A DNA stretch of 64,000 nt, from contig NZ_RDQM01000004.1 in the NCBI RefSeq assembly GCF_003703475.1, forward strand, positions 1 to 64,000, written 5' to 3'. This document shows, piece after piece, positions 10,312 through 63,122 of the stretch; positions within the stretch are counted from its first letter, which is position 1, and each line of letters starts with the position of its first letter. The notes under the pieces are model-generated. The model saw only the letters and a list, made by a program, of their open reading frames with translations, made no database searches and was not told the origin of the DNA. This DNA comes from Allofranklinella schreckenbergeri (lineage in GTDB: Bacteria; Pseudomonadota; Gammaproteobacteria; Burkholderiales; Burkholderiaceae_C). The position numbers were made by a program, and so were the translations under genes.

Positions 10312-10830
10312 ATGACCACCCAGCCCGCCAGCGTGCAATGCGCCTGCTGCAAACGCCCTTTGCCCGCCCCGCAGGCCATTTGCCCGCATTGCGATGCCCA
10401 ACTCAGCGGTGCGCATACTTTCATGGATGGGCATTACCGTCCCGGCGAAAGCGGCGGCGCTTACCTTTGCCCCTGGTGCGATCAACACTTCGCCACCCCG
10501 CTGTACGAGCTGCCACCGCCAGGCGCGCACTGGTGGCAGCCCACAGGGCTATGCCCCCAGTGCCCGCATTGCCACGGTTTTCTGCGCGACACCTGCCCTC
10601 GCGTGCGGCTGCGCCCTTCGCGCGTGCTCGCCGCCTGCCTGGCTGTCGCCTGCGCCCATCTGGCAGGCGGGCTGACCGCTTGGTTGACCGTGCCGGTGCT
10701 GCTGTTGACACTTGCGGCTTTTCACTGGCCTTGGCAGCGCCAATCCATGCAGCACGAAGCCCAGCACCGCCAGCACCCCCGGCGCTTTGAGCGCCTGCCG
10801 CACACCAGCCAAAACAATTCCAAAACATAG
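10312..10830 (+). CDS. Zinc-ribbon membrane protein of unknown function
   Basis: 172 residues from ATG 10312; an in-frame ATG at 10267 is possible, but neither has a clear ribosome-binding site. Three cysteine knuckles are visible: CACC...CPHC (about residues 10-28), CPWC and CPQCPHCH. A hydrophobic segment (about 110-150) may cross the membrane twice. I do not recognise the family. The TAG stop falls inside the left arm of interspersed repeat copy 1, so this element sets the C-terminus. Base composition matches the neighbours. Confidence 0.55.
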   Translation: MTTQPASVQCACCKRPLPAPQAICPHCDAQLSGAHTFMDGHYRPGESGGAYLCPWCDQHFATPLYELPPPGAHWWQPTGLCPQCPHCHGFLRDTCPRVRLRPSRVLAACLAVACAHLAGGLTAWLTVPVLLLTLAAFHWPWQRQSMQHEAQHRQHPRRFERLPHTSQNNSKT

Positions 10831-10896
10831 AAAAACAATCTTCTTACCCATCAAGCCAAAATAGCAATATTATTTTGCTTAATGAACTGTAAAAAA
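10822..10896 (+). repeat. Interspersed palindromic element, copy 1 (most diverged)
   Basis: Core AAGCCAAAATAGC, then a T-rich stretch and AATGAACTGTAAAAA matching the right arm of the family. The left arm carries ATAGAAAA and supplies the TAG stop of the preceding gene. Lies just before the tRNA-Val promoter. Confidence 0.6.
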
Positions 10897-10959
10897 TTCG
10901 ATTTTGCGAGCCAAGGCCTATTTCTCGCACATTTTTTCTCACCGCACCAAAAATGCCGC

Positions 10960-10965
10960 TACAAT
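10960..10965 (+). promoter_or_regulatory. -10 box of the tRNA-Val promoter
   Basis: TACAAT followed by a GC-rich discriminator (CTCGCC), as in stable-RNA promoters. No good -35 is seen at 17 nt. A start near 10972 would give a leader of about 28 nt. Confidence 0.4.
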
Positions 10966-10999
10966 CTCGCCTTTCGCTGCAACGCGAACCGATTGATTC

Positions 11000-11074
11000 G
11001 GGTGGTTAGCTCAGTGGTAGAGCACTGCCTTCACACGGCAGGGGTCACAGGTTCGAACCCTGTATCACCCACCA
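11000..11074 (+). tRNA. tRNA-Val (anticodon CAC)
   Basis: Full cloverleaf. Acceptor stem GGGTGGT pairs with ATCACCC, the anticodon stem CTGCC/GGCAG encloses loop TTCACAC with anticodon CAC at 11032-11034, and the T arm contains GGTTCGAACCC. CCA is encoded. CAC reads GUG valine codons, which are frequent in this GC-rich DNA. Confidence 0.97.
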
Positions 11075-11080
11075 TATCCA

Positions 11081-11112
11081 AAGCCCTTGGCATAGCGCCA
11101 AGGGCTTTTTTT
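11081..11112 (+). terminator. Rho-independent terminator of tRNA-Val
   Basis: AAGCCCTTGGC / GCCAAGGGCTT stem of 11 bp with a short loop, followed by eight T. Confidence 0.9.
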
Positions 11113-11253
11113 TGCCCCCTCCCCTCATATGTGCCTTGGCCGCTGGGGAGCTCAAGGCTTGTTCTTTGATTGGCGCACGCGCATGCACGGTGCATCCCCA
11201 GCCCTTCTCGTATGATCGCGCGCTTGTTGAATTGCCAGCCCCTGCCCTGCTTC

Positions 11254-11658
11254 ATGCCAACCGCTCCCCAGTCCTTGCCTGCCCGCCACGCTTTGGTGCG
11301 CGATCTGGCGCTGGCGGGCCTGTCTTTCGCGCTGGATGTGCTGCTGTTTGCGCTGGTGCATCACGTCACGGGGCGGGTGTTTTTCTCCGTCGTCCTCGCG
11401 CGGGTGCTTTCGGCGCTGTTCAACTTCGCTGGCAACCGGCTGTTTGTGTTCAAAGGGCGGCAAGCGCAAACCTTGCTGTCGCAACTGCTGGGCTATGCGG
11501 CACTGGCGGTAGCCATCATGCTGTGCTCGGCCACGCTGGTGCAGTGGCTGGTGGCGCACTGGCAGCTACCGGCCGTGCCTGCGAAGGTGGCGGTGGATGT
11601 GCTGCTGTATCTGGTTTCGTTTTACATCCGGCGCACCTGGCTGTTTCGGCTGCATTGA
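11254..11658 (+). CDS. GtrA-like flippase family membrane protein
   Basis: 134 residues from ATG 11254, with four predicted membrane segments. Features of the GtrA/DPMS-associated family are seen: an N-terminal charged segment, then F..N(F)..NR.FVF (here SALFNFAGNRLFVFKG) and a final RR.WLF (RRTWLFRLH). The family helps flip or position polyprenyl-linked sugars in the cytoplasmic membrane. The start is uncertain: another ATG lies in frame at 11212 and neither has a strong ribosome-binding site. It stands just upstream of radA with no functional link evident. Confidence 0.75.
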   Translation: MPTAPQSLPARHALVRDLALAGLSFALDVLLFALVHHVTGRVFFSVVLARVLSALFNFAGNRLFVFKGRQAQTLLSQLLGYAALAVAIMLCSATLVQWLVAHWQLPAVPAKVAVDVLLYLVSFYIRRTWLFRLH

Positions 11659-11697
11659 CCGGCAGGGCCGGGGGCGCTGCACTTTTCTTTTTTCACT

Positions 11698-13086
11698 GTG
11701 GCACGCGAGAAATCCCATTACGTTTGCTCGGCTTGCGGGGCGACTTCGCCGCGCTGGCTCGGGCGCTGCCCTGGTTGCGAGGCCTGGAACAGCCTGGTCG
11801 AGACGGCCAGCGCGCCGCCTGCGCGCGAGAGCAAAAACCGCCTCTCCCAAAGCAGCGCCAGCCATTACGCGGGCGCGCAAAGCCAGCCCATCACGCCGTT
11901 GGCGCAGATTGAGGCCAACGAAATCGCGCGTACCCCCAGCGGCATTGCCGAGCTGGATCGGGTGCTGGGCGGCGGCGTGGTGGAAGGCTCGGTGGTGTTG
12001 ATGGGCGGCGATCCCGGCATTGGCAAATCCACCCTGCTGCTGCAAGCGCTCGATCGCCTGCAACGCCAGGGCCTGCCCACGCTGTACGTCAGCGGCGAGG
12101 AAAGCGGCGCGCAAATCGCGCTGCGCGCGCGGCGGCTGGATTTGCCCGACAGCCAGGTGCCCATCCTGACCGAAATCCAGCTTGAAAAAATCCTCGCCGC
12201 CACCGATGCGCACCAACCTGCGGTGGTGGTGATCGATTCGATCCAGACGCTGTACTCCGACCAGCTCAGCTCTGCGCCCGGCTCGGTAGCGCAGGTGCGC
12301 GAGTGCGCCGCCCACCTCACGCGTCAGGCCAAAAGCACCGGCATTGCGATGGTGCTGGTAGGCCACGTCACCAAGGAAGGCACCATCGCTGGCCCCCGTG
12401 TGCTGGAGCATATGGTCGATACCGTGCTGTATTTCGAGGGCGACACGCACAGCAGCTTCCGGCTGGTGCGCGCCATCAAGAACCGCTTTGGCGCGGTCAA
12501 CGAGATCGGCGTGTTTGCGATGACCGAAAGCGGCCTCAAGGGCGTCTCCAACCCCAGCGCGATTTTCTTGAGCCAACACAGCGAGGCGGTGGCGGGCAGT
12601 TGCGTGCTGGTCACGCTCGAAGGCAGCCGCCCTCTGCTGGTGGAAATCCAGGCTCTGGTGGACACCGGCGGCCCCAGCCCGCGGCGGCTTTCCGTCGGGC
12701 TGGAGCGCGACCGCCTGGCCATGCTGCTGGCCGTGCTGCACCGCCACGCGGGGGTGGGCACTTACGACCAGGACGTGTTCATCAACGCCGTAGGCGGCGT
12801 GCGCATCAACGAGCCAGCGGCCGATTTGGCGATCTTGCTGGCCATCCAGTCCTCGCTGCGCAACCAGCCCTTGCCCAAGGGTTTTATCGCCTTTGGCGAA
12901 GTGGGCCTGGCGGGCGAAGTGCGCCCGGCCACGCGCGGCCAGGAGCGGCTGCGCGAGGCGGCCAAGCTGGGCTTTAGCGTCGCCATCGTGCCCAAGGCCA
13001 ATGCCCCGAAAAAGCCCATTGCCGGCATCCAGGTCCACGCCGTGGAGCGCATTGAGCAAGCCCTGGAGTGCGTGCGGGCGCTGTAG
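11698..13086 (+). CDS. radA: DNA repair protein RadA
   Basis: 462 residues, GTG start. An N-terminal C4 zinc finger (Cys 10, 13, 24, 27: CSACG...CPGC), then a RecA-like ATPase with Walker A GGDPGIGKSTLL (about 103-114), Walker B VVVIDSIQT, the RadA-specific KNRFG motif (IKNRFGAVNEIGVF), and a C-terminal Lon-protease-like domain ending in the GEVGLAGEVRP region. Acts in recombinational repair and branch migration. Length is normal for the family. It is followed by interspersed repeat copy 2. Confidence 0.97.
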   Translation: MAREKSHYVCSACGATSPRWLGRCPGCEAWNSLVETASAPPARESKNRLSQSSASHYAGAQSQPITPLAQIEANEIARTPSGIAELDRVLGGGVVEGSVVLMGGDPGIGKSTLLLQALDRLQRQGLPTLYVSGEESGAQIALRARRLDLPDSQVPILTEIQLEKILAATDAHQPAVVVIDSIQTLYSDQLSSAPGSVAQVRECAAHLTRQAKSTGIAMVLVGHVTKEGTIAGPRVLEHMVDTVLYFEGDTHSSFRLVRAIKNRFGAVNEIGVFAMTESGLKGVSNPSAIFLSQHSEAVAGSCVLVTLEGSRPLLVEIQALVDTGGPSPRRLSVGLERDRLAMLLAVLHRHAGVGTYDQDVFINAVGGVRINEPAADLAILLAIQSSLRNQPLPKGFIAFGEVGLAGEVRPATRGQERLREAAKLGFSVAIVPKANAPKKPIAGIQVHAVERIEQALECVRAL

Positions 13087-13104
13087 CCCCACCCACTTCA
13101 ATTG

Positions 13105-13176
13105 CAAATCAATGTAAAAAAGAAACTATACCCAAATTGCCGAAACAAGGTAATTTTATTTCTTATTGATCTATAA
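13105..13176 (+). repeat. Interspersed palindromic element, copy 2
   Basis: Left arm CAAATCAATG, core TTGCCGAAACAAGG, right arm TTTCTTATTGATCTAT. AAATTGCC and GGTAATTT around the core can pair (one G-T pair) and are followed by a T-rich tract. It lies 19 nt after the radA stop, between convergent radA and the MFS gene, reading in the radA sense. Confidence 0.85.
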
Positions 13177-13199
13177 TAGAGCACCGAACAAGCCCCCTC

Positions 13200-19923: not shown

Positions 19924-20868
19924 ATGAATATCACATTGCGGCAGCTGCGCGCTTTTATTGCTGTGACTCAAACCGGCAGCTTCACCCAGGCCGCCCAAAA
20001 GCTTTTTGTGACCCAATCGGCCTTAAGCGGCCTGATCAAGGAATTGGAGCTGGCGCTGGGCGTGCGGTTGTTCGATCGCAGCACGCGCCAAATCCAGCTC
20101 TCGGAGGTTGGGCGGGGCATTTACCCCATGATCGAGCAGATGCTGCACGATCTCGACGGCGTGCTCAACGAAGTCAGCAACCTCAAGGCCTTGAAAAAAG
20201 GCCTGGTGCGCATCGCCGCGCCGCAATTGATGTCCTGCACCCTGCTGCCCGATTTGATTGCCAGCTTTCGCGCCCAGCACCCGGATGTGGAAATCCGCCT
20301 GTTCGATTGCGCGGTGGAAAGCGTCACCGCCCGGGTGCTGGCCGGCGAGGTTGACCTGGGCCTGGGGCCTGAGCGCGAACCCCATGCCGATCTGGACGCC
20401 ACACCGCTGTTTGAGCTGCCCTTTCACGCCGTGCTGCCCGCCGGGCACCCGCTGGCGCAGCGCCCAGTGCTGCGCTGGGACGATTTGAGCGAGCAACCGG
20501 TCATCACCTTGCAAGGCCAGTTCACCGAGCGGCTCTCCATCGACTTGCACGCCGCCATCCGCCGCCAGGACATTCATCCCGCCATGACGGTGACCTTCAT
20601 GTCCACCGCCCTCAGCCTGGTCGCTTGCGGCCTGGGCATCACCTTGTGCATGCCTTATGCGGCCTCGCTGGTCAAGCTCTACAACGCCGAGATGCGGCTG
20701 TTGCAAGAGCCGCAAGTGCTGCGGCGCTTTCACGTCTTCAGCCGCGCCGGGCGCTCACTCTCGCCCGCTGCCGAGCAGTTTCGCAGCCATCTGCTGGCCG
20801 CCATTGCATTGCGCTACCCACCCCAACCATCCGCCAACGAGGACGGCGCAAACCAACAAGGCGGCTGA
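19924..20868 (+). CDS. LysR-type transcriptional regulator
   Basis: 314 residues. N-terminal winged helix-turn-helix (MNITLRQLRAFIAVTQTGSF, then AAQKLFVTQSALSGLIKELE), linker helix, and a periplasmic-binding-like effector domain (about 90-300). Divergent to the VOC-FAH-TRAP-isomerase run, the usual arrangement for a LysR activator of an aromatic pathway. No strong ribosome-binding site is visible before the ATG. It is followed by interspersed repeat copy 3. Confidence 0.93.
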   Translation: MNITLRQLRAFIAVTQTGSFTQAAQKLFVTQSALSGLIKELELALGVRLFDRSTRQIQLSEVGRGIYPMIEQMLHDLDGVLNEVSNLKALKKGLVRIAAPQLMSCTLLPDLIASFRAQHPDVEIRLFDCAVESVTARVLAGEVDLGLGPEREPHADLDATPLFELPFHAVLPAGHPLAQRPVLRWDDLSEQPVITLQGQFTERLSIDLHAAIRRQDIHPAMTVTFMSTALSLVACGLGITLCMPYAASLVKLYNAEMRLLQEPQVLRRFHVFSRAGRSLSPAAEQFRSHLLAAIALRYPPQPSANEDGANQQGG

Positions 20869-20899
20869 GGACGCAAGGCCCAGCAGCCGCCCATCAATT

Positions 20900-20975
20900 T
20901 CAATCAAAAGTAAAAATTACTTTATATCCAACATGCCGAAATAGGCATGATTTTTTTACTATTGATTTGCAAAAA
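20900..20975 (+). repeat. Interspersed palindromic element, copy 3
   Basis: Left arm CAATCAAAAG, right arm CTATTGATTTGCAAAAA. The core CATGCC-GAAATA-GGCATG is a perfect 6-bp hairpin directly followed by ATTTTTTTA, so it reads as an intrinsic terminator for the LysR gene. Lies between convergent genes. Confidence 0.88.
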
Positions 20976-24064: not shown

Positions 24065-24979
24065 ATGCCCAACAGCCCCTCCCCGCGCGCCAGCGAGCAG
24101 CGCGGCATCCAGTCGATTGAAGTGGGCGGCGCTTTGCTGCAAGCGCTGGCCGATCATGGCAGCCCGATGATGCTCAAAGACCTGGCCGCCGCCGCCAACA
24201 TGCCTGCGGCCAAGGCGCATCCGTATCTGGTGAGCTTCGTCAAACTGGGCCTGGCCGAGCAAGACGCCCGCACCGGCCGCTATCGGCTCGGCCCCTTTGC
24301 CCTGCAACTGGGCTTGAGCGCGCTGCGCGGCCTCGATCCCGTGCGCATCGCCACGCATCAGGCCGCCTTGCTGGCCGATGAAAGCCAGCTCAGCATCGCC
24401 GTGGCGGTGTGGGGCAACTTCGGGCCGACGGTGATCCACATCGAAGAGGGCCAGCGCCCCATCCACGTCAACATGCGCCCGGGCACGGTGCTGATGCCGC
24501 TGCTGCTCTCGGCCACGGGGCGGGTGTTTGCCGCCTTCATGCCCGGCCGCACCATTGAGCCGCTGCTGCGGCGCGAGACGCAACCCGCGCACGGCGATGG
24601 CGATGCTTCAGCGCACACCACCGCCAGCGCCCGGCCCACGCTGGCGGCCTTTGCCTACGCCGCTGCTGCGGGGCATACGCCAGACCCTGCTCGCGGCATG
24701 CGCACCTGGGCACAGGCGCAGGCTTTGCTGGAGGAGATTCGCACCCAACGGCTGGCGCGCGCGATGGGCAGCCCGATCCCCGGCGTCAATGCCTTCTCCG
24801 CCCCGGTGCACGATGCCAGCGGCCAACTGGCCCTGACCATTACCGCCATGGGCGCGGCGGACGATTTCGATGCCGCCTGGGACAGCCCCATCGCCCAGCG
24901 CTTGCGCGCCTGCGCCCGCGAGATCGAGTACCGCCTGGGCGCGCCCGATCCAGCGGGGGGCGCTGGGCCAAGCGCCTAG
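24065..24979 (+). CDS. IclR-family transcriptional regulator
   Basis: 304 residues. N-terminal winged helix-turn-helix (about 10-75: IEVGGALLQALADHGSPMML, LAAAANMPAAKAHPYL, GRYRLGP) and the IclR effector domain (AVWGNFGPTVIHIEEG, RPGTVLMPLLLSATGRVFAA, and the later SAPVHDASGQLALTITAMG). Divergent from the MBL/monooxygenase genes, which it probably controls. Compared with textbook IclR proteins the C-terminal half has a less conserved insert (about 170-205). Confidence 0.93.
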   Translation: MPNSPSPRASEQRGIQSIEVGGALLQALADHGSPMMLKDLAAAANMPAAKAHPYLVSFVKLGLAEQDARTGRYRLGPFALQLGLSALRGLDPVRIATHQAALLADESQLSIAVAVWGNFGPTVIHIEEGQRPIHVNMRPGTVLMPLLLSATGRVFAAFMPGRTIEPLLRRETQPAHGDGDASAHTTASARPTLAAFAYAAAAGHTPDPARGMRTWAQAQALLEEIRTQRLARAMGSPIPGVNAFSAPVHDASGQLALTITAMGAADDFDAAWDSPIAQRLRACAREIEYRLGAPDPAGGAGPSA

Positions 24980-25009
24980 CACGACCCCTTTTGGCATTCG
25001 CTCAATTTA

Positions 25010-25085
25010 CAAATCAATGTGAATTGAAAACAAATACCACCATGCCGAAACAGGGTGATTTCATTTCCTTTTGATCGATAAAAAA
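25010..25085 (+). repeat. Interspersed palindromic element, copy 4
   Basis: Left arm CAAATCAATGTGAA, core ATGCCGAAACAGGGTG, right arm TTTCCTTTTGATCGAT. CACC and GGTG flank the core and can pair. Lies between convergent iclR-type gene and gyrB, in the sense of the former. Confidence 0.88.
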
Positions 25086-25216: not shown

Positions 25217-28027
<2,811 letters not shown>

Positions 28028-29788: not shown

Positions 29789-29979
29789 TCGCGCACAGCG
29801 CACAACACCCAGGCACACGCGCCGTGCCACAACGGCCTGACCGCCCGCGCGGCTTGCCTGGCACTTTCCCTGCCCCTGGCTGGCCTGAGCCTGGCCCAGC
29901 GGGCGCTAGCATCGGCAAGGCTGTGGCCTTGGGGCCTTACCCCTCCCCCTTCTCATAACACCTTCAAAGGAGATTTCAC

Positions 29980-30759
29980 ATGGCATACGAAACCATCGAA
30001 GTACGCACCGAAGCGGAAAAAGTCGGCATCATCACTCTCAACCGCCCCAAGGCCCTCAACGCCTTGAACGACCAGCTCATGACCGAGCTGGGCCAGGCCC
30101 TCAAGGCCTTTGACGCCGACGACAGCATTGGCTGCATCATCGTCACCGGCAGCGAAAAAGCCTTTGCCGCCGGCGCCGACATCACGGCCATGGCCAAGTA
30201 CAACTTCATCGACGCCTACAAGGGCGACTTCATCACCCGCAACTGGGAAACCATCCGCAGCGTGCGCAAGCCCGTCATCGCCGCCGTCAGCGGCTACGCC
30301 CTGGGCGGCGGCTGCGAGCTGGCCATGATGTGCGACTTCATCATCGCCGCCGAAAACGCCAAGTTCGGCCAGCCCGAAATCAAGCTGGGCGTGATCGCCG
30401 GCGCAGGCGGCACGCAGCGCCTGCCGCGCGCCGTGGGCAAGGCCAAGGCCATGGACATGAACCTCACCGGCCGCATGATGGACGCGCAGGAAGCCGAGCG
30501 CTCCGGCTTGGTCAGCCGCGTGGTGCCCACCGACAAGCTGATGGAAGAAGCCCTGGGCGCGGCGCTGACCATTTCCAGCTACTCGCTCATCGCCGCCATC
30601 GCCGCCAAGGAAGCCGTCAACCGCGCCTTTGAAAGCGGCCTGTCCGACGGCGTGATGTTCGAGCGCCGCCTGTTCCACGCGCTGTTTGCCACGCAAGACC
30701 AGAAGGAAGGCATGGACGCCTTCGTCAACAAGCGCCCGGCGCAGTTCAAGAACCAGTAA
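29980..30759 (+). CDS. Enoyl-CoA hydratase
   Basis: 259 residues of the crotonase superfamily. Seen: [13 protein letters not shown], the oxyanion-hole segment [23 protein letters not shown] with the first catalytic Glu, [20 protein letters not shown] with the second, and the tail [17 protein letters not shown]. All are typical of short-chain enoyl-CoA hydratase in fatty acid or phenylacetate degradation. AAGGAG lies just upstream. Ends in a clear terminator, followed directly by interspersed repeat copy 5. Confidence 0.95.
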
Positions 30760-30768
30760 ACCCTACCA

Positions 30769-30794
30769 GACGGCCTTCCCAGGCCGTCTTTTTA
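30769..30794 (+). terminator. Rho-independent terminator of the enoyl-CoA hydratase gene
   Basis: GACGGCCT-TCCC-AGGCCGTC stem-loop of 8 bp followed by TTTTTAT. Confidence 0.92.
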
Positions 30795-30868
30795 TAAATC
30801 AAAAATAAATAAAACAACCTCGTTTCGGCAATTCTGTCAATAAATGGAATTTACTTTGATCTAGAACA
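30794..30868 (-). repeat. Interspersed palindromic element, copy 5 (reverse)
   Basis: On the plus strand AAATCAAAAATAAAT, then CGTTTCGGCAATT (the core reversed), then TTACTTTGATCTAG. One of the two copies whose orientation does not fit a terminator role: both neighbours are on the plus strand, and a separate terminator precedes it. Confidence 0.85.
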
Positions 30869-31495: not shown

Positions 31496-31525
31496 GGCGG
31501 CCCGCGCATGCAGGGCCGCCTTTTA
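31496..31525 (+). terminator. Rho-independent terminator of the heme oxygenase gene
   Basis: GGCGGCCC / GGGCCGCC 8-bp stem, 9-nt loop, then TTTTAT. The next element, repeat copy 6, begins at its T-tract. Confidence 0.85.
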
Positions 31526-31600
31526 TATTTCAAGGAAAAATAAACCCATACCCATCATGCCAAAACAAGGAAATTATTTTTCCCATTGATTTACAAAAAT
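31526..31600 (+). repeat. Interspersed palindromic element, copy 6
   Basis: Left arm ATTTCAAGGAAAAAT, core ATGCCAAAACAAGG, right arm CCCATTGATTTACAAAAA. Same sense as the heme oxygenase gene that ends upstream. Confidence 0.88.
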
Positions 31601-31845: not shown

Positions 31846-34800
31846 GTGTCACTGTTCGTCACCCTGCTTGAGGGCGCACCCGCCCTTTCCGCCTTTCGCG
31901 CCCAAAAACTCCTGCCCCAACTGCAAGCCATCGCCCCCGGCATTGAGGCGCTGGATGCGCGCCACCTCTACCTGATCGCCAGCCAAACCCAGCCCGACGC
32001 CCAGACGCTGGCGCAGTGGGAGCGCCTGCTGGACGCCCAACAAGGCAGCGCCAGCAGCAACGCAGACAACACTGCCAGCGCCACCCGCGACGCCCACGCC
32101 CCGCTGTGGCTGGTCACGCCGCGCGTGGGCACGGTCAGCCCCTGGGCCTCCAAGGCGACGGACATCGCCCGCAACTGCGGCCTGGCGGCATCCTCGGGCC
32201 TGGTGCGCATCGAGCGCGCCACGGCCTACAACGTGCAGCCAGGCGGCCAGCCCTTGAGCCAAGCCCAGTGGCAAGCCATCGCCGCCCTGCTGCACGACCG
32301 CATGACCGAATCCGTGCTGACGCACCCCAGCCAGGCCCGACAACTGTTTGACAGCCTGCCCGCCGCGCCGCTGCAAACGGTGGACGTGCTCAGCGGCGGC
32401 CCCGAGCAAGGCAAGCAGGCGCTGGAGGCGGCCAACCGCGACTGGGGCCTGGCACTGGCCGAGGATGAGATCGACTACCTCGTAGCCGCCTTCACGCAAC
32501 TGGGCCGCAACCCCACGGATGTGGAGCTGATGATGTTCGCCCAGGCCAACAGCGAGCACTGCCGCCACAAGATATTCAACGCGGACTTCACCATTGACGG
32601 CCAGCGCCAGGACAAAAGCCTGTTCGGCATGATCCGCCACACGCACCAGATGGCGCCGCAGCACACCGTCGTGGCCTATGCCGACAACGCCTCGGTGATG
32701 GAAGGCCATGCCATCGAGCGCTTCGTCGCCCGCGCCGGCGACGCCCAGGCCCCGCGCCAGTACGTGCGCGAGCCGGCCCGCCACGACGTGCTGATGAAGG
32801 TGGAGACGCACAACCACCCCACGGCCATCTCGCCCTTCCCCGGCGCGGCCACCGGCGCGGGCGGCGAAATCCGCGACGAAGGCGCCACCGGCCGTGGCGC
32901 GCGGCCCAAGGCGGGGCTGACAGGCTTTACCGTCTCCAAGCTCTGGGGCGGGCTGAGCGAGCAGCCCGGCGGCAAGCCCGCCCACATGGCCAGCCCGCTG
33001 GAGATCATGACCGAAGGCCCGCTGGGCGGCGCGGCCTTCAACAACGAGTTTGGCCGCCCCAACCTGGCCGGTTATTTCCGTGAATACGAGCAAGAAGTCG
33101 CGGGCGTGCAGCGCGGCTTTCACAAGCCCATCATGATCGCCGGCGGCCTGGGGCAGATCGATGCCACGCAGGTCAAGAAAGTGCAATTCCCCGCTGGCAC
33201 GCTGCTGGTGCAACTGGGCGGTCCGGGCATGCGCATCGGCATGGGCGGCGGCGCGGCCAGCTCGCTGGCCAGCGGCGTGAACGCGGCCGATCTGGACTTT
33301 GACTCCGTGCAGCGCGGCAACCCCGAGATTGAGCGCCGCGCGCAGGAAGTCATCAACCAATGCTGGCAATTGGGCCAGGACAACCCCATCCTGGCCATCC
33401 ACGACGTGGGCGCGGGCGGCTTGTCCAACGCCTTCCCCGAGCTGGTCAACGACGCCGGGCGGGGCGCGCGCTTTGATTTGCGCGCCGTGCCGCTGGAGGA
33501 AAGCGGCCTCTCGCCCAAGGAGATCTGGAGCAACGAAAGCCAGGAGCGCTACGTCATGGCCATCGCCCCCGAGGCGCTGGCGCGTTTTGAGGCGCTGTGC
33601 GCGCGCGAGCGCTGCCCATTTGCCGTGGTGGGCGTGACCACCGAAGCGCGCGAGCTGCGCGTGACCGAGGGCGACGACGCCACCGAAGCCACCACCGCCC
33701 CGCACCCCGTGGACATGCCCATGGACGTGCTGCTGGGCAAACCGCCCAAGATGCACCGCGACGTGCGCAGCGTGGCGCGCACGCCCCAGCCGCTGGATGT
33801 CACCGGCGTGGGTCTGCAAGAGGCCATCATCGGCGTGCTCAGCCACCCCACCGTGGCCAGCAAGCGCTTTCTCATCACCATTGGCGACCGCGCCGTGGGC
33901 GGCCTCACGCACCGCGACCAAATGGTCGGCCCCTGGCAAGTGCCGGTGGCCGATTGCGCCGTCACCCTGGCCGATTTCAAAGGGCTGGCGGGCGAAGCCA
34001 TGAGCATGGGCGAGCGCAGCCCGGTAGCCGCCCTCAACGCCCCGGCCTCGGGCCGCCTGGCCATTGCCGAGGCCATCACCAACCTGCTGGCCGCGCCCAT
34101 TGAGCTGGCGCGCGTCAAGCTCTCGGCCAACTGGATGGCCGCCTGCGGCGAGCCGGGCGAGGACGCCGACCTGTACGCCACCGTGCGCGCCGTCGGCCTG
34201 GAGCTGTGCCCGGCGCTGGGCATTTCCATCCCCGTGGGCAAGGACAGCCTGTCCATGCGCACCGTCTGGCAGCACGAAGGCCAGCCACGCAAGGTCACCT
34301 CGCCCGTGACGCTGATCGCCAGCGCCTTTTGCACCCTGCCCGACATCACCGACACGCTCACGCCGCAACTCAATCGCGACGAGGCCGACACCACCCTCAT
34401 CCTCATCGACCTGGGCCGCGGCCAGATGCGCATGGGCGGCTCCATGCTGGCGCAGGTGCTGGGCCAGGAGGGCGGCGCCACCGCCGATCTGGACGACGCG
34501 CAAGACCTGGTGCGCCTGGTCGATGCCGTCAACCAACTGCGCCGCGAAGGCAAGCTGCTGGCCTACCACGACCGCAGCGACGGCGGCCTGTTGGCCACCG
34601 TGGCCGAAATGGCCTTTGCCGGGCGCGTGGGCGTGGCGCTGAATGTGGACTTGCTCGTCACCGAAGGCGACGGCATCAGCGACAGCCGCGCCGAATACGG
34701 CGACGCCAAGAACTGGGCGCAGCAAATCAGCGCACGCCGCGAAGAACTCACCCTCAAAGCCCTGTTCAACGAGGAGCCGGGCGTAGTGCTGCAAGTGCGC

Positions 34801-35913
34801 ACCGCCGAGCGCGACGCCGTCATGCAAACGCTGCGCGCGCACGGCCTGTCCAAGCACAGCCACTACATCGGCAAAACCCGCCCCGCGCAGGCCCCGCTGG
34901 AAGATGGCAAAGGCCAGCTGCAAATCTGGCGCGACACGCAAAAAGTCTTTGCCGCCGACCTGTTCGACCTCTACCAGGTCTGGGACAGCGTGAGCTGGCA
35001 AATCGCCCGCGAGCGCGACAACCCCGCCTGCGCCGATGAAGAACACGCCAGCGCGGGCCAAATGGACGACCCCGGCCTGCATGTGCATCTGAGCTTCGAT
35101 CCGGCCGAGGACGTGGCCGCCCCCTTCATCGGTCAGGCTCGCCCGCGCGTGGCCATCCTGCGCGAGCAGGGCGTCAACTCCCACGTCGAAATGGCCTACG
35201 CCTTCAGCGAAGCGGGCTTTGACGCCATCGACGTGCACATGAGCGACTTGCAGGCCGGGCGCGAAAACCTGGCGCAATTTCAGGGCTTGGTCGCCTGCGG
35301 CGGCTTCAGCTACGGCGACACCCTGGGCGCGGGCGTAGGCTGGGCGCGCTCCATCACCTTCAACCCCGCGCTGCTGGAGCAATTCCAGCAATTCTTCGCC
35401 CGTGGCGACAGCTTCGGCCTGGGCGTGTGCAACGGCTGCCAGATGTTCGCCGAGCTGGCGAGCATCATCCCCGGCGCAGGGGCCTGGCCGCGCTTTACCA
35501 CCAACCGCAGCGAGCGCTTCGAGGCGCGCCTCTCGCAAGTCGAGGTGCTGGACAGCCCCAGCCTGTTCCTGCAAGGCATGGCTGGCAGCCGCCTGCCCGT
35601 CGTCGTCGCCCACGGCGAAGGCTTTGCCAACTTCAGCCGCCAGGGCGACGCCAGCGCTGCCATCGCCGCCATGCGCTACGTCGATCACCTGGGCCAGCCC
35701 ACCGAGCGCTACCCCGCCAACCCCAACGGCAGCCCCGGCGGCCTGACCGCCGTCACCACCGCCGACGGGCGCTTCACGGCCATGATGCCCCACCCCGAGC
35801 GCGTCTTCCGCAACGCCCAGATGAGCTGGACGGATCTGGCCGCCACCGGCGGCCTGGGCGCCCACAGCCCCTGGGTCCGCCTGTGGCGCAACGCGCGCAA
35901 GTGGGTGGGTTAA
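31846..35913 (+). CDS. purL: Phosphoribosylformylglycinamidine synthase (large, fused)
   Basis: 1355 residues from GTG 31846, which has AGGA 9 nt upstream and gives the family start (M)[21 protein letters not shown]. Layout: N-terminal PurS-like domain, linker, two AIRS-type halves ([49 protein letters not shown]), and a C-terminal class I glutaminase with nucleophile in [10 protein letters not shown] (about residue 1195) and His/Glu in MPHPERVF. Converts FGAR to FGAM with glutamine and ATP in purine synthesis. Length is as in other proteobacterial fused enzymes. The opposite strand is open over nearly the whole gene because of GC-rich codon bias and is not a gene. Confidence 0.97.
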
Positions 35914-35924: not shown

Positions 35925-35999
35925 ATACAAATCAAAAGGAAATAAAATAACCCCTTATTGGCATGATGGGTCTATTGTTCCATTTACCTTGATTTGTAT
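35925..35999 (-). repeat. Interspersed palindromic element, copy 7 (reverse; longest perfect arms)
   Basis: Terminal inverted repeat ATACAAATCAA (35925-35935) / TTGATTTGTAT (35989-35999) is perfect over 11 bp, total length 75 bp. The core reads ATGCCAATAAGGGG on the minus strand. Between convergent purL and the HMG-CoA lyase-like gene, in the sense of the latter. Confidence 0.93.
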
Positions 36000-36150: not shown

Positions 36151-37059
36151 TCAACCCGCGCGCTTATTGAGCAGCGCCACCGCCACGCGGGATTGGTTTT
36201 TGCGGCCCAGATGCTCGCTGATGAATTGGCCTGCGTCCACGAGCTTGTCCAGATCGATGCCCGTTTCGATATCCATGCCGTGCAGCATATACACCACATC
36301 TTCCGTGGCAACGTTGCCCGTGGCGCCCTTGGCGTAAGGGCAACCGCCCAGGCCAGCGACGGAGGATTGGAAGTTGCTCACCCCCACCTCCATCGCCGCC
36401 AAGGTATTGGCCAGAGCCTGGCCGTAGGTGTCGTGGAAGTGGCCGCTGATGTGTGCAATGTCGTAATAGCCCAGCGTCGCCTCGATGGCGGCCTGCACCT
36501 TGCGCGGCGTGCCCACGCCGATGGTGTCGGCCACGTCCACGCGCTGCACGCCAATTTCTTTCATCAGGCTAGCCAGGTAGGCTACTTTTTCGGGGGCGAT
36601 ATCGCCTTCGTAGGGGCAACCGACGGTGCAGCTCATGGCGCCGCGCACGGCCATGCCTTGGGCCAGGGCGGCCTGAACCACCGGGGCGAAGCGCTCGATG
36701 CTCTCGGCAATGGAGCAGTTGATGTTCTTCTGGCTGAAAGCCTCGCTGGCCGAGCCAAAGACGACGATTTCGTCAGGCCGCGTGGGCAGCGCCGCTTCAA
36801 AACCTTTCATGTTGGGGGTGAGCACGCTGTAGCGCACGCCGGCCTTGCGGGCGATGCCGGCCATGACTTCGGCGTTGTCGCCCATTTGCGGCACCCATTT
36901 GGGGCTGACGAAGCTGGTGACTTCGATTTCCTGCAAGCCCGCCTCTTGCAGCTTGTGCACCAGCTCGATCTTGATGGCGGCGGGCACAGGTTGTTTTTCG
37001 TTTTGCAAACCATCGCGCGGGCCGACGTCGATGATCTGGACTTTGCTGGGCAATGTCAT
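36151..37059 (-). CDS. Hydroxymethylglutaryl-CoA lyase
   Basis: 302 residues, TIM-barrel of the DRE-TIM family. Start MTLPSKVQIIDVGPRDGLQN (catalytic Arg/Asp pair in PRDGLQNE), then EVTSFVSPKWVPQMGDNAEV, GAMSCTVGCPYEG, the metal histidines in ISGHFHDTYGQA, and the catalytic Cys loop VAGLGGCPYAKGATGN. Cleaves HMG-CoA to acetyl-CoA and acetoacetate in leucine catabolism. AGGAG is 9 nt upstream. A close relative acting on another hydroxyacyl-CoA cannot be excluded. Confidence 0.92.
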   Translation of the reverse strand: MTLPSKVQIIDVGPRDGLQNEKQPVPAAIKIELVHKLQEAGLQEIEVTSFVSPKWVPQMGDNAEVMAGIARKAGVRYSVLTPNMKGFEAALPTRPDEIVVFGSASEAFSQKNINCSIAESIERFAPVVQAALAQGMAVRGAMSCTVGCPYEGDIAPEKVAYLASLMKEIGVQRVDVADTIGVGTPRKVQAAIEATLGYYDIAHISGHFHDTYGQALANTLAAMEVGVSNFQSSVAGLGGCPYAKGATGNVATEDVVYMLHGMDIETGIDLDKLVDAGQFISEHLGRKNQSRVAVALLNKRAG

Positions 37060-37105
37060 GGCGGGACTCTCCTGGTGAAAGCGCTGTGGGGAAGCGCAAT
37101 TTTTA

Positions 37106-37180
37106 TATTTCAAAAAGCAACAAAATCACCCTATTTCGGCAATTTTATAAACAATCGCCTTTTCTTATGATCTGCAATAT
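37106..37180 (-). repeat. Interspersed palindromic element, copy 8 (reverse)
   Basis: Plus strand TATTTCAAAAAG at one end and CTTATGATCTGCAATA at the other; the core reads TTGCCGAAATAGGGTG on the minus strand. It lies downstream of the PII gene terminator and about 47 bp upstream of the lyase start, so it may also sit in the lyase leader. Confidence 0.82.
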
Positions 37181-37231
37181 AGCCATGAAATGGCTGTAGG
37201 CGATGTTTTCTGCGGGGAAGGCGGCCGTGGC

Positions 37232-37266
37232 AAAAACATCGGGCCTGTGAAAGGCCCGATGTTTTT
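37232..37266. terminator. Terminator of the PII gene
   Basis: AAAAACATCGGGCCT / AGGCCCGATGTTTTT, 15 bp with a GTGAA loop and T runs on both strands. It follows the glnB-type gene stop at 37280 on the minus strand. Confidence 0.93.
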
Positions 37267-37279
37267 GCTCCAGATGCCA

Positions 37280-38699
<1,420 letters not shown>

Positions 38700-39858: not shown

Positions 39859-39949
39859 GGTTTTTTCTCAAACTGTGCTGCCCGCCATTGTATGAATAGG
39901 CTGCCTGGGATTTGGGCTGAAAGCGACACTTTGATGAAATAGCTGTTTT

Positions 39950-40022
39950 TAAATCAAAATAAAATTCAACCAAATACTATCATGCCAAAATAGCATTATT
40001 TTATTTCTTTTTGAATTGCAAA
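39950..40022 (+). repeat. Interspersed palindromic element, copy 9
   Basis: Left arm TAAATCAAAATAAA, core ATGCCAAAATAGCAT (ATGC/GCAT pairing), right arm TTTCTTTTTGAATTGC. Both neighbouring genes are on the minus strand, so this copy is the second exception to the terminator orientation. Confidence 0.85.
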
Positions 40023-40023
40023 T

Positions 40024-40815
40024 TCAAAGACCTGCATGCTGTTGCGCGTGCCGCTGTTGCTCTGCGCGGGCCATGGCGGCGATGAGTTCGCCCCAGGTTG
40101 CCATGCCCAGCGCCTGCGCCCTGGCCAGTGCGACCAATGCCAATTCGGCGGTGGCCATCGCATCGGCCACGGCATGGTGGCGCTCGCTATTGCCCAGGCG
40201 CAAGGCGCGCAGCCACGCATCCAGATCGGTGCCCAGCGCGGCATGCTCGGGGAACAACAGCGGCATGGCATGCGCCAGGTCGTACACCTTGGGCAAGCGC
40301 CCGCCCTGCGCCGTCAGCCCCAGCCACTGCTGCGCGGCGCGGTGCAGCATCGTTTCGTCAAACCAGGCGTGCCAAGCCAGCCAAACTGCATCTTGCCCCC
40401 AATCGAGCAATTCCAGCAACGCCTGGTGCGGGTCTTGCCCCTGGGCCAGATCGGCTTGCGTCATGCCGTGGAATAACTGGCTATCGGGCTTGAGCTGCAC
40501 CTGCACTGCCAGCACGCGCTCCCACGTTTGTCCCAGCGCAATGCCCAAGCCCTGGCCGCCGGCATCTGGCTCCAGGCGCACGCCACCGATGGACAAGATG
40601 GTGTCGCGCTTGAGGTCCAGCCCCGTTGTCTCCAGGTCGAACACCACCACCGCCTGCTGCCGCAAGCCTTGCGCGCCCGCTTGCACCATGGCAGGCAACT
40701 GTGCCAGTTGTGCGGCCAATGCCTGCTGCTCGCTGCTTGACAGCGCCTGCTGCGCACGCGCGGCTGCTCCGCCTGCGCTTGCGCCGCCCAGCCACTGCCT
40801 GATCCGATCCCACAT
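40024..40815 (-). CDS. DEDDh 3'-5' exonuclease (DnaQ-like)
   Basis: 263 residues. The exonuclease core starts in VVVFDLETTGLDLKRDTI (Asp/Glu of motif I), motif II near AWHAWFDETML, and the DEDDh motif III HHAVADAMATAEL. It is not the polymerase III epsilon subunit itself because the sequence lacks the usual epsilon C-terminus and carries a 50-residue Gln/Ala-rich N-terminal region. Related genes are often next to cyclic-nucleotide/CBS-domain proteins, absent here. Start MWDRIRQWLG is chosen over a slightly earlier Met. Confidence 0.82.
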   Translation of the reverse strand: MWDRIRQWLGGASAGGAAARAQQALSSSEQQALAAQLAQLPAMVQAGAQGLRQQAVVVFDLETTGLDLKRDTILSIGGVRLEPDAGGQGLGIALGQTWERVLAVQVQLKPDSQLFHGMTQADLAQGQDPHQALLELLDWGQDAVWLAWHAWFDETMLHRAAQQWLGLTAQGGRLPKVYDLAHAMPLLFPEHAALGTDLDAWLRALRLGNSERHHAVADAMATAELALVALARAQALGMATWGELIAAMARAEQQRHAQQHAGL

Positions 40816-43334: not shown

Positions 43335-43685
43335 ATGAAAGAGCTGGACTTTTCCTCCCTGCTGGCCGTGCTGCAGGAAATGCTGGGCACGCCCTTGCTG
43401 ATTGCCTTGCCTGTCATCAGCATTCTGGGCACCGTGGCCTTCTTGTGGCTGCTGCTGCGCGAAGGCCTGGCCCCCGCTCGCCTGGTGGTATGCCAATTTT
43501 TGGGCATCATCGGTGGCGCATTGGCTGTGGCCTTGATGTTCCAAGTGGCATCTTCGGGCAGCACCAACCCGGGCGGCGCCATCGACTGGCTGGTTATCGG
43601 GCTGGTGTACGTGCTGGGCTGGATCGGCACAACCATCGTGTGCTACAGCATCGCTGGCTGGGTTGGCGGCGCACGCAAACGGTAA
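43335..43685 (+). CDS. Small membrane protein following sqr (DUF5368-like)
   Basis: 116 residues from ATG 43335 (AAGGAG just upstream; an earlier ATG at 43327 hits a stop at once). Start MKELDFSSLLAVLQEMLGTP; three membrane segments (about 17-40, 50-72, 85-108). It resembles what I remember as DUF5368, which occurs next to SQR genes; that name is tentative. 26 bp after sqr, so co-transcribed; a partner or quinone-access subunit is possible. Confidence 0.6.
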   Translation: MKELDFSSLLAVLQEMLGTPLLIALPVISILGTVAFLWLLLREGLAPARLVVCQFLGIIGGALAVALMFQVASSGSTNPGGAIDWLVIGLVYVLGWIGTTIVCYSIAGWVGGARKR

Positions 43686-43693
43686 ATACATTC

Positions 43694-43764
43694 CAAATCA
43701 ATAGAAAAACCCCATTATGACTCAGTTGCCATAATGGGGTTATTTTTTATCCTTTGATTTAAAA
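43694..43764 (+). repeat. Interspersed palindromic element, copy 10
   Basis: Left arm CAAATCAATAGAAAA, right arm TCCTTTGATTTAAAAA. The centre has been replaced by an 11-bp perfect hairpin around the core (GCCATAATGGG). Confidence 0.85.
43708..43750 (+). terminator. Intrinsic terminator inside repeat copy 10
   Basis: AACCCCATTAT (43708-43718) pairs perfectly with ATAATGGGGTT (43731-43741), with a 12-nt loop, followed by ATTTTTTAT. It ends the sqr operon. Confidence 0.93.
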
Positions 43765-43765
43765 A

Positions 43766-59022: not shown

Positions 59023-59033
59023 AGCATCACCTC

Positions 59034-59513: not shown

Positions 59514-59575
59514 TGTTTGTACTCCTCAGGCGGACACGTCAAGCCCGACCGAATGCAGTCGCAACAGCACCGGGA

Positions 59576-59935: not shown

Positions 59936-60181
59936 GGGTAGATGCCATCGTGCGACCCTCGCCGCTGCGTCATCGCAACCACGGGGCTTTTTATTGATGT
60001 TGCTGGTGTGCCAACAACGCTTATATCGAATATTGGCGCTGCACGGCAGCGTTCTTGCACCGAAGATTTCGCTGCGCGATGCACCAATCCAGTTGGCGGC
60101 TCAATTCTTTGACCGGCCCCAACTGCGGCGGCGATTCTAGCCCATGGTTGACACACTTTGAAAGAATTGCGCCGCCCCCAC

Positions 60182-61651
60182 TTAGCGCTTGTTTTTCGTC
60201 GGGCGTTGCCAATGAGCCACTGTCAAGGTTTTCGCCCGTGTAACCGTCAAACTCCCGGCAGGCGTATCCCGCGTGATGGTTGAACCGGCCCCGATGGTGC
60301 CGCCCTCGCCCAGCATCACTGGCGCAACCAGCACGCTGTTGCTGCCTACATGCACATCGGCGCCGATGGTGGTGCGGTGTTTGTTGGCGCCATCGTAGTT
60401 GGCCGTGATGGCACCTGCGCCGTAATTGACGCGCTCGCCCACGCTGGCGTCGCCCAGATAGGCCAGATGGTTGGCTTTGGCCCCACGCGCCAGCGTGCTG
60501 TTTTTCACCTCAACGAAGTTGCCGATATGCACCTCATCGGCCAAATCGGCCCCGGGGCGCAAGCGGGCGAACGGGCCGATGCGCGCCTCATCGCCCACGC
60601 GCACGCCTTGGGCCTCGCCATCCACATGAGAGTACGGGTGGATTACCCCCCTCTGCCCTATCTGGGCCTGGGCGATGTGGCAGTAAGCGCCCACCTGCGT
60701 TTGCGCTCCCAAATGGACCTCACCGGCAAACACACACCCCACGTCGATATGCACATCCGGCCCGCAATGCAGCACCCCTGGCAAAGCGCTGCCTGGGCGG
60801 GCGCGCAAATCAAAACGCGCCGGATCCGCCAAGCGAACGCCCTGGGCCATCAATTGCTCCGCTTGCATGCGCTGATAGCGCCGCTCCAGCGCCGCCAATT
60901 GCGCCGGGCTGTTGACGCCCTCCACCTGCCAGGCCTGGGCCTGCGGCAAACAATGCGCCTGCACTTCCACGCCTTCGCTAACCGCCATGGCGATGACGTC
61001 CGTCAAGTAATACTCCCCTTGGGCATTGTCGTTGCGCAGCCTCTCCAGCCACGGCTTCAACAGGCGGGCGGGGAAGGCCATGATGCCGCTGTTGATCTCG
61101 CGGATGCGACGCTGCGCTTCACTGGCGTCTTTTTGTTCAACAATGCTCTGCACCTGGCCAGCGGCATCGCGCACGATACGGCCATACCCACTCGGGTCGT
61201 CCAGCTCTACGCTCAGCAAGGCCACACGCTGGTTGGCGCACAAATCCAAAACCGCCTGCAACGTCGGCGCGGTCACCAGCGGCACATCCCCTAGCAGCAC
61301 CAGCACCATGTGTTCATCGGCGAGCGCGGGCGCGGCCTGCTGCATGGCATGGCCTGTGCCGCACTGGGGCGACTGGAGTACGCACGTCAGCGCCGTTTTC
61401 GGCAGCAGCGCAGCGGCGTGCTGGCTGGCGTAATCCTCCACCTGCTGCGCTTCGTGGCCCGTCACCAGCACCAATTGCGCGGGCTGCAACTGCCCGGCGG
61501 TCTGCAGCACATGCGCCAGCAGGGCGCGCCCGCCCAGGGTTTGCAGCACTTTGGGATAACGGCTTTGCATGCGCGTGCCCTTGCCGGCGGCCAGCACAAC
61601 GACGCTCAAAGCGCCTGAATGGAATGGGGATGCACTCATGGATGCGCTCAT
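60182..61651 (-). CDS. glmU: Bifunctional GlmU (UDP-GlcNAc pyrophosphorylase / acetyltransferase)
   Basis: 489 residues from ATG 61651; a second in-frame ATG at 61639 gives 485. N-terminal uridyltransferase: VVLAAGKGTRMQSRYPKVLQ (about 19-38), LLGDVPLV, PSGYGRIVRD, and EINSGIMAF. C-terminal left-handed beta-helix of hexapeptides with acetyltransferase residues (NFVEVKNSTLARGAKANHLA; NYGAGAITANYDGANKHRT). Makes UDP-GlcNAc for peptidoglycan and LPS. Divergent from plsY across 181 bp. Confidence 0.96.
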   Translation of the reverse strand: MSASMSASPFHSGALSVVVLAAGKGTRMQSRYPKVLQTLGGRALLAHVLQTAGQLQPAQLVLVTGHEAQQVEDYASQHAAALLPKTALTCVLQSPQCGTGHAMQQAAPALADEHMVLVLLGDVPLVTAPTLQAVLDLCANQRVALLSVELDDPSGYGRIVRDAAGQVQSIVEQKDASEAQRRIREINSGIMAFPARLLKPWLERLRNDNAQGEYYLTDVIAMAVSEGVEVQAHCLPQAQAWQVEGVNSPAQLAALERRYQRMQAEQLMAQGVRLADPARFDLRARPGSALPGVLHCGPDVHIDVGCVFAGEVHLGAQTQVGAYCHIAQAQIGQRGVIHPYSHVDGEAQGVRVGDEARIGPFARLRPGADLADEVHIGNFVEVKNSTLARGAKANHLAYLGDASVGERVNYGAGAITANYDGANKHRTTIGADVHVGSNSVLVAPVMLGEGGTIGAGSTITRDTPAGSLTVTRAKTLTVAHWQRPTKNKR

Positions 61652-61832
61652 CACAACTAGAAGAAAAGCATGAAGGGAGAAAAATCGGCTGCGCATTATC
61701 CCTGCCCTGCCCGCCGCCCTTTCGCCCCAAACGGCTGCTGAATCAGCGCCCAAGCCACGGGCCAGCGCCTCGGCCGCCCCAATGCCGCATGGATAATGCG
61801 CCCTTTGTTTTTCGATACCGGAGTCAACCGCC

Positions 61833-62546
61833 ATGCAAGGGATGGATTGGGCCGCGCTCGCTGCGGCGTGTCTGGGCGCATACCTCTTGGGCTCTGTGCC
61901 CTTTGCCGTCGTCGTCAGCCGCCTCATGGGCCTGGCCGATCCGCGCTCGTTTGGCAGCGGCAACCCAGGCGCGACCAACGTGCTGCGCTCGGGCAGCAAA
62001 TCCGCCGCCGCCCTGACCTTGCTGCTCGATGCCGCCAAAGGCTGGCTGCCCGTGGCCCTGGTGGGCTGGTGGGGCCCGCGCTACGGTCTGGGCGCAGGCG
62101 CGCAAGCGCTGGTGGGGCTGTGCGCCTTTGCCGGGCACGTCTGGCCCGTCTTTTTGCGCTTCAAAGGCGGCAAAGGCGTGGCCACCGCTCTGGGCGTGCT
62201 GCTGGGCATCAGCCCCTGGCTGGGGCTGCTGGTGGCTGGCGTTTGGCTGCTGGCGCTGGCAGGCTCGCGCATGTCCTCGCTCTCGTCGCTGCTGGCGGCG
62301 GCTGCGGCACCCATCATTTACTGGCTCGGCTCCGGCCTGGCCTGGGGCAGCACGCCGCAAGTGCCCTTCATGCTGGGCGTGATGGCGGTGATCTTGTTTT
62401 ACCGCCACAGCGGCAACATCGCCCGCTTGCTTGCTGGCACCGAGCCGAAAGTGGGTCAAAAAAGCGCCGCACCCCACACCACCGCAGCCCCCCACGCCCC
62501 CGCGCCCCGACTGACCAAAGCGCAGCGCAAAAAGCGCAACCACTAA
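61833..62546 (+). CDS. plsY: Glycerol-3-phosphate acyltransferase PlsY
   Basis: 237 residues, five or more membrane segments. Three PlsY motifs: [20 protein letters not shown] followed by [25 protein letters not shown]..., and [16 protein letters not shown]. Transfers acyl from acyl-phosphate to glycerol-3-phosphate, the first step of phospholipid synthesis. Basic Ala/Pro/Lys-rich C-terminal tail (about 30 residues) beyond the family core. GGAG upstream. Confidence 0.95.
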
Positions 62547-62559
62547 GCCTTCAAAAATT

Positions 62560-62630
62560 CCATTCAAAAGAAACAACAATAACCATTCATATTGCCAAAA
62601 CAGGAAATTTTTATTTCTTTTGAATTGAAA
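62560..62630 (+). repeat. Interspersed palindromic element, copy 11
   Basis: Perfect 12-bp arms ATTCAAAAGAAA (62562-62573) / TTTCTTTTGAAT (62614-62625), different in sequence from other copies but fully paired; core TTGCCAAAACAGG. Starts 15 bp after plsY and ends about 8 bp before the acpS start codon. Confidence 0.92.
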
Positions 62631-62635
62631 TAATC

Positions 62636-63058
62636 ATGATTTACGGCATTGGCACCGACATCTGCGACATCCGCCGCATCGCCCAGGCGCTGGAGCGCCA
62701 CGGCGAGCGCTTTGCGCAAAAAATCCTCAGCGACGCCGAACTGGCCACCTGGCAGAGCCGCGCGGCGCGCAACGCTGCGCGCGGGCACAGCTTCATCGCC
62801 ACCCGCTTTGCCGCCAAGGAAGCCTTTAGCAAAGCCATCGGCCTAGGCCTGCATGCCCCCATGAACTGGCGCGACTGCGAAGTGGCCCACCACCCCAGCG
62901 GCCAGCCGCGCATCCACACCCACGGCGCCCTGCACGATTGGTGCCAGGCGCGTCGGCTGCGCTTTCACCTCACCCTCACCGATGAAAACGACTACGCCGT
63001 GGCCTTTTGCATCGCGGAAACCGACGCCGCCCCAGATCACCAAAATAATCAATCATAG
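62636..63058 (+). CDS. acpS: Holo-[acyl-carrier-protein] synthase
   Basis: 140 residues. [19 protein letters not shown] (Asp 8 metal ligand) and [16 protein letters not shown] (Lys 61, Glu 62) are the two AcpS signatures. Attaches phosphopantetheine to ACP. No Shine-Dalgarno is seen; the upstream sequence is the T-rich right arm of repeat copy 11. The last residues NNQS and the TAG stop are encoded in the left arm of repeat copy 12. About 14 residues longer than E. coli AcpS, mostly at the C-terminus. Confidence 0.95.
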
Positions 63059-63122
63059 GAAAATCAAATCCAATACCAAATTGCCAAAACAAGGCAATTT
63101 TGTTTCCTATTGATCGATAAAA
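63047..63122 (+). repeat. Interspersed palindromic element, copy 12
   Basis: Left arm ATCAATCATAGGAAA overlaps the acpS stop; right arm TTTCCTATTGATCGAT. The centre AAATTGCC-AAAACAA-GGCAATTT is a perfect 8-bp hairpin followed by TGTTT, a terminator-like shape in the acpS sense. Confidence 0.9.

Follow-up and report, generated by a model that had tools for sequence, protein, structure and literature searches.

A short palindromic element at gene ends in one Comamonadaceae lineage is under constraint at fixed sites

The stretch of DNA analysed here (the window) comprises 64,000 nt of Allofranklinella schreckenbergeri (contig NZ_RDQM01000004.1 of assembly GCF_003703475.1; this genome is called G000 below) and holds twelve copies of a short palindromic element, which are listed with their neighbouring genes in Table 1. 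A sequence-only reading had placed twelve such copies between genes, and all of them are real. A sequence-only model made from the alignment of these copies (R1), run without filters over the two strands of the window, gave 19 matches: the 12 copies (E 4.2e-20 to 4.6e-14, starting at most 5 bp from where that reading had put them), six weaker matches to the opposite strand of copies, and one of 36 bp at chance level (E 0.21). The copies are dispersed, as had been claimed, and lie at gene tails; the one at 63049 is not strictly intergenic.

Table 1. Copies of the element in the window; strand is the one on which the TGCC core reads, and scores are those of model R1.
Copy	Position	Strand	Score (bits)	Context
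1	10818..10894	+	49.9	after ORF 10245-10790 (+)
2	13102..13178	+	67.9	convergent, 16 bp past gene 11899-13086 (+)
3	20898..20974	+	56.0	convergent, 30 bp past gene 19924-20868 (+)
4	25007..25083	+	65.8	convergent, 28 bp past IclR-type gene 24065-24979 (+); counterpart in G005
5	30790..30866	-	59.5	tandem, enoyl-CoA hydratase-like / heme oxygenase-like; adjoins GC-rich terminator-like hairpin
6	31522..31598	+	57.1	gap of heme oxygenase-like gene / gene 31846-35913 (+); adjoins GC-rich terminator-like hairpin
7	35925..35998	-	62.0	12 bp past gene 31846-35913 (+); convergent with HMGL-like gene (-)
8	37101..37177	-	59.1	gap of genes 37280-37624 (-) / 36151-37059 (-)
9	39947..40022	+	57.1	2 bp past 3' end of gene 40024-40689 (-)
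10	43691..43765	+	54.4	6 bp past gene 43335-43685 (+, DUF5368)
11	62558..62632	+	48.6	12 bp past plsY-like gene (stop 62546); 4 bp before acpS start
12	63049..63122	+	64.4	overlaps last 10 bp of acpS (62636-63058); counterpart in G005

The element is about 77 bp long and is built of two inverted half-sites (TTnYAAATCAA..GGAAA) around an asymmetric core (ATGCCRAAAYARGG..TTTTnTTTCC). The shared inverted arms described earlier are present, with their consensus corrected to TTnYAAATCAAnrGGAAA, but the core TGCCRAAAYARGG, named along with them, is by itself not above chance (14 matches with two mismatches allowed, against 12.0 expected). The likeness of the copies goes beyond their A+T composition: AAATCAATAGGAAA occurs 104 times in the genome with at most one mismatch, against once for the reversed control, and 112 of 121 strong half-site matches in 460,785 bases fall inside elements or within 15 bp of them, where the reversed sequence gives a single match. 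Over 106 aligned rows (including five that were later dropped) the consensus is TTtCAAATCAAAGGAAAATtaAcTTcATtaCCATCATGCCGAAAcAgGGttATTTTaTTTCCTtTTGATTTGTAAAA; it ends in TTn and nAA, and positions kept in 93-100% of rows interleave with positions that have no majority base. The profiles of the left and right half-sites (36 left and 70 right, ungapped) are nearly equal, including an A-to-T variant found at 19% on both sides, and this common base profile is as expected of one binding protein. The copies are mutually distant, with a mean pairwise identity of 65% and a maximum of 86% among the 93 copies of at least 30 bits, and their G+C content ranges from 17 to 50%. Five pairs of elements stand in tandem, about 90-100 bp apart (L058:6047-6214, L070:12019-12186, L076:8550-8724, L063:13400-13561 and L071:1789-1954), and in three of the five one partner is clearly more G+C-rich (0.46-0.50). 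Beside the pair at L063 a lone half-site is followed immediately by a GC-rich terminator-like hairpin (L063:13347-13400), and at L074:19415-19499 an inverted half-site pair surrounds another core that R1 does not match, perhaps a variant of the element.

The suggestion that the genome carries hundreds of copies holds up well. In 21 stretches of G000, covering 460,785 of its 2,822,117 bases, R1 gave 106 matches at E of 0.01 or less, which leave 101 distinct copies once four opposite-strand readings and one 36-bp fragment are removed. This is one copy per 4.6 kb, a density that may be too high since the stretches come from contigs on which matches were known beforehand. A whole-genome search gave at least 150 matches, all of those listed being above 50 bits, so that the family is far from confined to the twelve copies first noticed; we infer a genome-wide total of some 400 to 600. 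On contig C25 no further copy came from a broader model (R2), and a regular spacing or a strand rule was considered there and rejected (coefficient of variation of the spacing 1.22; 30 copies on the plus strand and 23 on the minus strand).

The distribution among genomes is narrow. When R1 was run over 40 genomes, G000 and its sister species G005 (about 94% DNA identity) each had at least 117 matches, whereas among the best 150 candidates per genome the congeners G006, G008 and G009 had four, one and one, and G001-G004 and G007 had none; a single match at the level of the order (G038, E 0.002) was taken as chance. With stricter filters, two of 299 genomes of the family matched, G000 and G006, G005 not being among the matches listed. 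An exact pattern found 24 stretches in a genome collection, all in one Comamonadaceae MAG (JAUMYU01) that is apparently G005 itself, and none in viral contigs, exact patterns being apt to overlook diverged copies; one copy each searched against phages and plasmids gave no match. Judging by these searches, almost nothing of the element seems to exist outside the G000/G005 lineage. Of the four G006 copies, two stand in tandem where the DNA matches G000 at 94%; one site is common to G006 and G008, in DNA 94-96% identical to G000; and the DNA around the fourth G006 copy is 98% identical to G005 and 88% to G000; the G009 copy has no such near-identical counterpart DNA. The DNA around five of the six congener copies is thus 94-98% identical to that of G000 or G005, and because other aligned segments are mostly 66-90% identical we take these five to be probably introgressed. 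At the shared site (L042:1501-1545 in G008 and L049 in G006, against L069:1029-1104 in G000) much of both arms is off consensus in the two congeners and the flanks are close. In the window, positions 25219-27733 and 29979-30768 are 96-98% identical to G006, G008 and partly G009, elsewhere mostly 66-90%, and these segments likely reflect recent exchange between species.

The placement of the copies follows the tails of genes and not their direction. Both neighbours could be assigned for 97 of the 101 copies with a home-made gene caller that overlooked some genes, among them ones in the nuo region: 65 lie between tandem genes, 24 between convergent and eight between divergent ones, and one of these eight (10818) in fact follows an ORF that the caller missed. 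Stop codons that face a copy are a median of 24 bp away from it. Among gaps of at least 85 bp, a copy is found in 21 of 32 convergent, 61 of 150 tandem and 8 of 44 divergent gaps (convergent against divergent, p 4e-5). Relative to tandem genes the core faces the same way in 33 cases and the opposite way in 32, hence without bias. The gap between plsY and acpS is so short (Table 1) that the element evidently can share its place with the end of one gene and the upstream region of the next.

Such a position at the 3' ends of genes would also suit a bidirectional terminator or an mRNA 3'-end hairpin, whose palindromic RNA would end or protect the transcripts arriving from either side. Several observations speak for this explanation. 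The arms and the core of a single copy pair better with each other than they do once partners are swapped (z -6.7 and -5.7; 1170 pairs in own copies against 1121 ± 10.7), and some copies form a strong hairpin with a T-run (L071:1789, L076:8550 and window 43691, where the core is a long hairpin followed by T-rich sequence, with a fold of -23.2 kcal/mol and z -5.03). At convergent ends, a copy goes with fewer terminator-like hairpins outside the element: in gaps of at least 120 bp, 11 of 34 ends that have a copy show one, against 14 of 22 that lack a copy (p 0.03). For tandem ends the corresponding figures are 9 of 48 against 21 of 67 (p 0.14). Shorter gaps give 0 of 6 against 2 of 8 at convergent ends and, at tandem ends, 0 of 13 against 5 of 54. 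Part of this deficit may come from the space taken by the element. Moreover, a GC-rich terminator-like hairpin marks the end of plsY in G006 and G008, where G000 has the element alone. Against this stand the asymmetric core, which faces either way, and the hairpin type, which does not track gene direction (p 0.20, 0.60 and 0.54). RNAalifold found no consensus pair in the 12 copies, mutual information over 85 copies gave no strong helix, and on the sense strand the arms have no more G-U than A-C (41 to 46); the lack of a G-U excess, together with the independence of hairpin type from gene direction, favours DNA over RNA. Two copies in the window lie directly behind a complete terminator-like hairpin, and the enoyl-CoA hydratase end in G000 has both such a hairpin and the element. 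Searches of Rfam gave only one tRNA in the window and, at 10 loci, one match of 25.8 bits against a cut-off of 50. The self-complementarity above swapped controls could come from selection for cruciform or hairpin formation or from template switching in palindromes, and on its account we keep an RNA-level role as a rival, one that we consider doubtful but worth carrying forward.

Hundreds of copies with inverted ends and a fixed length, some in tandem pairs, present in one lineage and nearly absent from its congeners, could also suggest a non-autonomous mobile element (a MITE or a REPIN) active now or until recently. The sequence-only reading had offered a MITE-like or a REP-, ERIC- or Correia-like nature; the structural part of this stands (a dispersed, gene-tail repeat with paired inverted arms), but nothing was found in favour of present-day mobility. 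BLAST aligned 157,641 bases of G000 and G005 at 92-97%. All 37 aligned G000 copies have an aligned counterpart in G005, and 36 of the 37 a partner that R1 matches, the exception being one weak copy; in the other direction 36 of 38 G005 copies could be aligned and all 36 have a G000 partner, the other two lying in alignment breaks. Within alignments there is no gap of 25 bases or more and, as BLAST may split at a 77-bp gap, the breaks were compared with the lists of R1 matches: two have a copy in G000 as well as in G005 (L064:19769 with L090:18264, and L065:6847 with L090:10410) and the remaining ones have no model match in either. Of the aligned copies, then, none has been gained and none clearly lost. 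The comparison of orthologous junctions with and without a copy, suggested earlier as a way to find target duplications, found the copies of the two species at shared sites, and the longest flank repeat averages 1.82 against 1.48 ± 0.18 in shuffles, which is not a clear duplication, although old duplications would have decayed. At the window junction 37059-37280 relatives could not be aligned by eye or by BLAST, and no insertion boundary was obtained.

No RAYT (Y1_Tnp, PF01797) was found in G000 or in the 80% complete G005 by a search that was positive in 5 of 14 control genomes, and neither genome has a match to DDE_3 (PF13358). DDE_Tnp_1 has 12 matches in G000; a transposase with ends like the arms had been envisaged, but in the one IS group of G000 that was compared the ends differ. 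No isolated half-site pair around a gene, as an autonomous relative would have, occurs in the 460,785 bases scanned. On contig C25 of G000 an IS5-type element of about 850 bp (L157:1140-1995) shows 98% identity between two copies in G000 and one in G008; it has ends like GAGCCTGTTCAAAATC, and words similar to these ends occur in intergenic DNA of congeners, for example at L126. No two of the 93 copies compared are above 86% identity. Altogether we see no sign that the element moves today.

What the immobile copies do show is constraint. For 38 pairs of G000 and G005 (37 copies and a fragment), positions were binned by their conservation among copies; the two species differ at 31.0% (144/465) of positions conserved below 50%, at 21.6% (173/800), 12.6% (56/445) and 6.1% (23/374) in the middle bins with rising conservation, and at 3.5% (25/709) of those conserved in at least 93% (Spearman rho -0.80 between conservation and difference). 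As the copies were chosen by their G000 sequence, a bias is possible on the G000 side only. At fourfold sites the species differ by 8.4% overall, so that the excess of constraint is only about twofold against these, and by 45% where G000 has A and 41% where it has T, the bases of which the element mostly consists. Whole elements differ by 16% and their 40-bp flanks by 17%, which confines the constraint to part of the positions. Conservation among copies alone would not be decisive, because copying also keeps copies alike; since the aligned copies sit at the same sites in both species and their conserved positions change slowly, the position-specific constraint points to purifying selection in place, on the sites themselves. 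This could not be seen in the sequence-only reading. It also weighs against a recently mobile element, an explanation that we now regard as rather improbable. As key letters are kept by selection, the element probably does some job for the cell.

That this job is to serve a large regulon as promoter or as regulator-binding element is very improbable: the half-sites are palindromic, and 28 of the 65 copies between tandem genes have the next start codon less than 45 bp away, but few copies occur between divergent genes and those near start codons show no orientation bias (16 to 12).

We favour instead, at about even chances, a boundary site: an old, lineage-private family of paired half-sites, REPIN-like and now immobile, that is kept as an orientation-independent site at the 3' ends of genes and acts at the level of DNA through a putative protein. 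The family probably spread by transposition or by REPIN-like copying before becoming immobile, an old mobile origin being the easiest way to hundreds of copies in one lineage. One putative protein would bind both inverted half-sites together with the central motif and would bend or loop the A+T-rich DNA; neighbouring transcription units could thereby be separated, with respect to supercoils between convergent genes and to read-through, and the element might stand in partly for terminators. REP and BIME sites are thought to separate neighbouring transcription units in a like manner. The boundary site is suggested by the constraint in place at the same sites of both species, by the gene-tail placement without orientation bias, and by the rarity of other hairpins at convergent ends with a copy. 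The weakness of the same effect in tandem gaps and the fact that close relatives live without the element count against it, and the pairing within copies argues against a pure binding site, which needs none. In a stronger and more speculative version, which we consider possible but unlikely, the hundreds of 77-bp gene-tail sites would be a lineage-specific punctuation of the chromosome, bound by one dedicated putative protein absent from relatives and insulating transcription units; if so, a former mobile element would have turned into chromosome architecture.

These results touch an old question, namely whether the dispersed palindromic repeats of bacteria are parasitic or serve the chromosome as functional parts. 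A short palindromic element at gene ends of one Comamonadaceae lineage, by our estimate at hundreds per genome, whose aligned copies have not moved between two species, is a clean place to seek the function of such repeats and the putative protein behind them.

We recognised no published description of this family in the available extracts of the open-access literature, and each known system is like it only in part. An intrinsic terminator has its hairpin and T-run oriented with the upstream gene, and the element does not. The IHF site has the consensus WATCAANNNNTTR, with TTR four bases after WATCAA; the element keeps AATCAA but would depart from it at positions 16-18, where most copies have AAA. 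Neisserial intergenic mosaic elements with dRS3 ends are units bounded by inverted repeats of about 20 bp, in hundreds of copies, but they have another end sequence, and the present family has one conserved core. In the cited extracts, the Betaproteobacterial repeat element BRE is an intergenic repeat of 75-91 bp at full length found in Betaproteobacteria including Comamonadaceae, with 69% G+C on average in Bordetella, at most 29 copies, and tandem arrays of varying number (PMC3110155). The present element, likewise short, intergenic and found in Comamonadaceae, departs from that account in its low G+C content and its hundreds of copies. MITEs such as Correia and ERIC, as portrayed in the source extract, have terminal inverted repeats, are intergenic and numerous, and can carry protein-binding sites (PMC10969869). 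Terminal inverted repeats, intergenic position and high copy number are, on that portrayal, common to both, but our family has no insertion polymorphism between G000 and G005 and no clear target duplication. Correia elements have an IS630-type helper, and DDE_3 gave no match in the two genomes; the Correia end sequence differs from the ends of the element.

The closest parallels in placement and architecture are with REP, BIME and REPIN sequences. The REP families GTAG and CGTC are given, in the extract cited, as sequences of 20-40 bp present in many copies, mostly in tandem or convergent gaps near 3' ends (PMC3733652); the element shares this placement and abundance, but at 77 bp it exceeds the length quoted there and its consensus ends carry no GTAG or CGTC tag. 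REPINs, according to the extracts cited, consist of two inverted REP sequences with conserved ends of about 16-17 nt, separated by 71 or 110 bp in P. fluorescens SBW25, and are extragenic, persist for long in hundreds of copies and have highly diverse spacers (PMC3116915, PMC8049555). The element differs in its conserved core, set against the diverse spacers of that account, in the constraint between orthologous fixed sites, in the absence of a RAYT match from G000 and G005 and in the lack of a near-identical replicating group. Although the RAYT, end tag and near-identical copies that define those families were not found here, the element resembles REPINs, as they are described there, in its two inverted conserved ends at a fixed distance, its extragenic position, its long persistence and its hundreds of copies.
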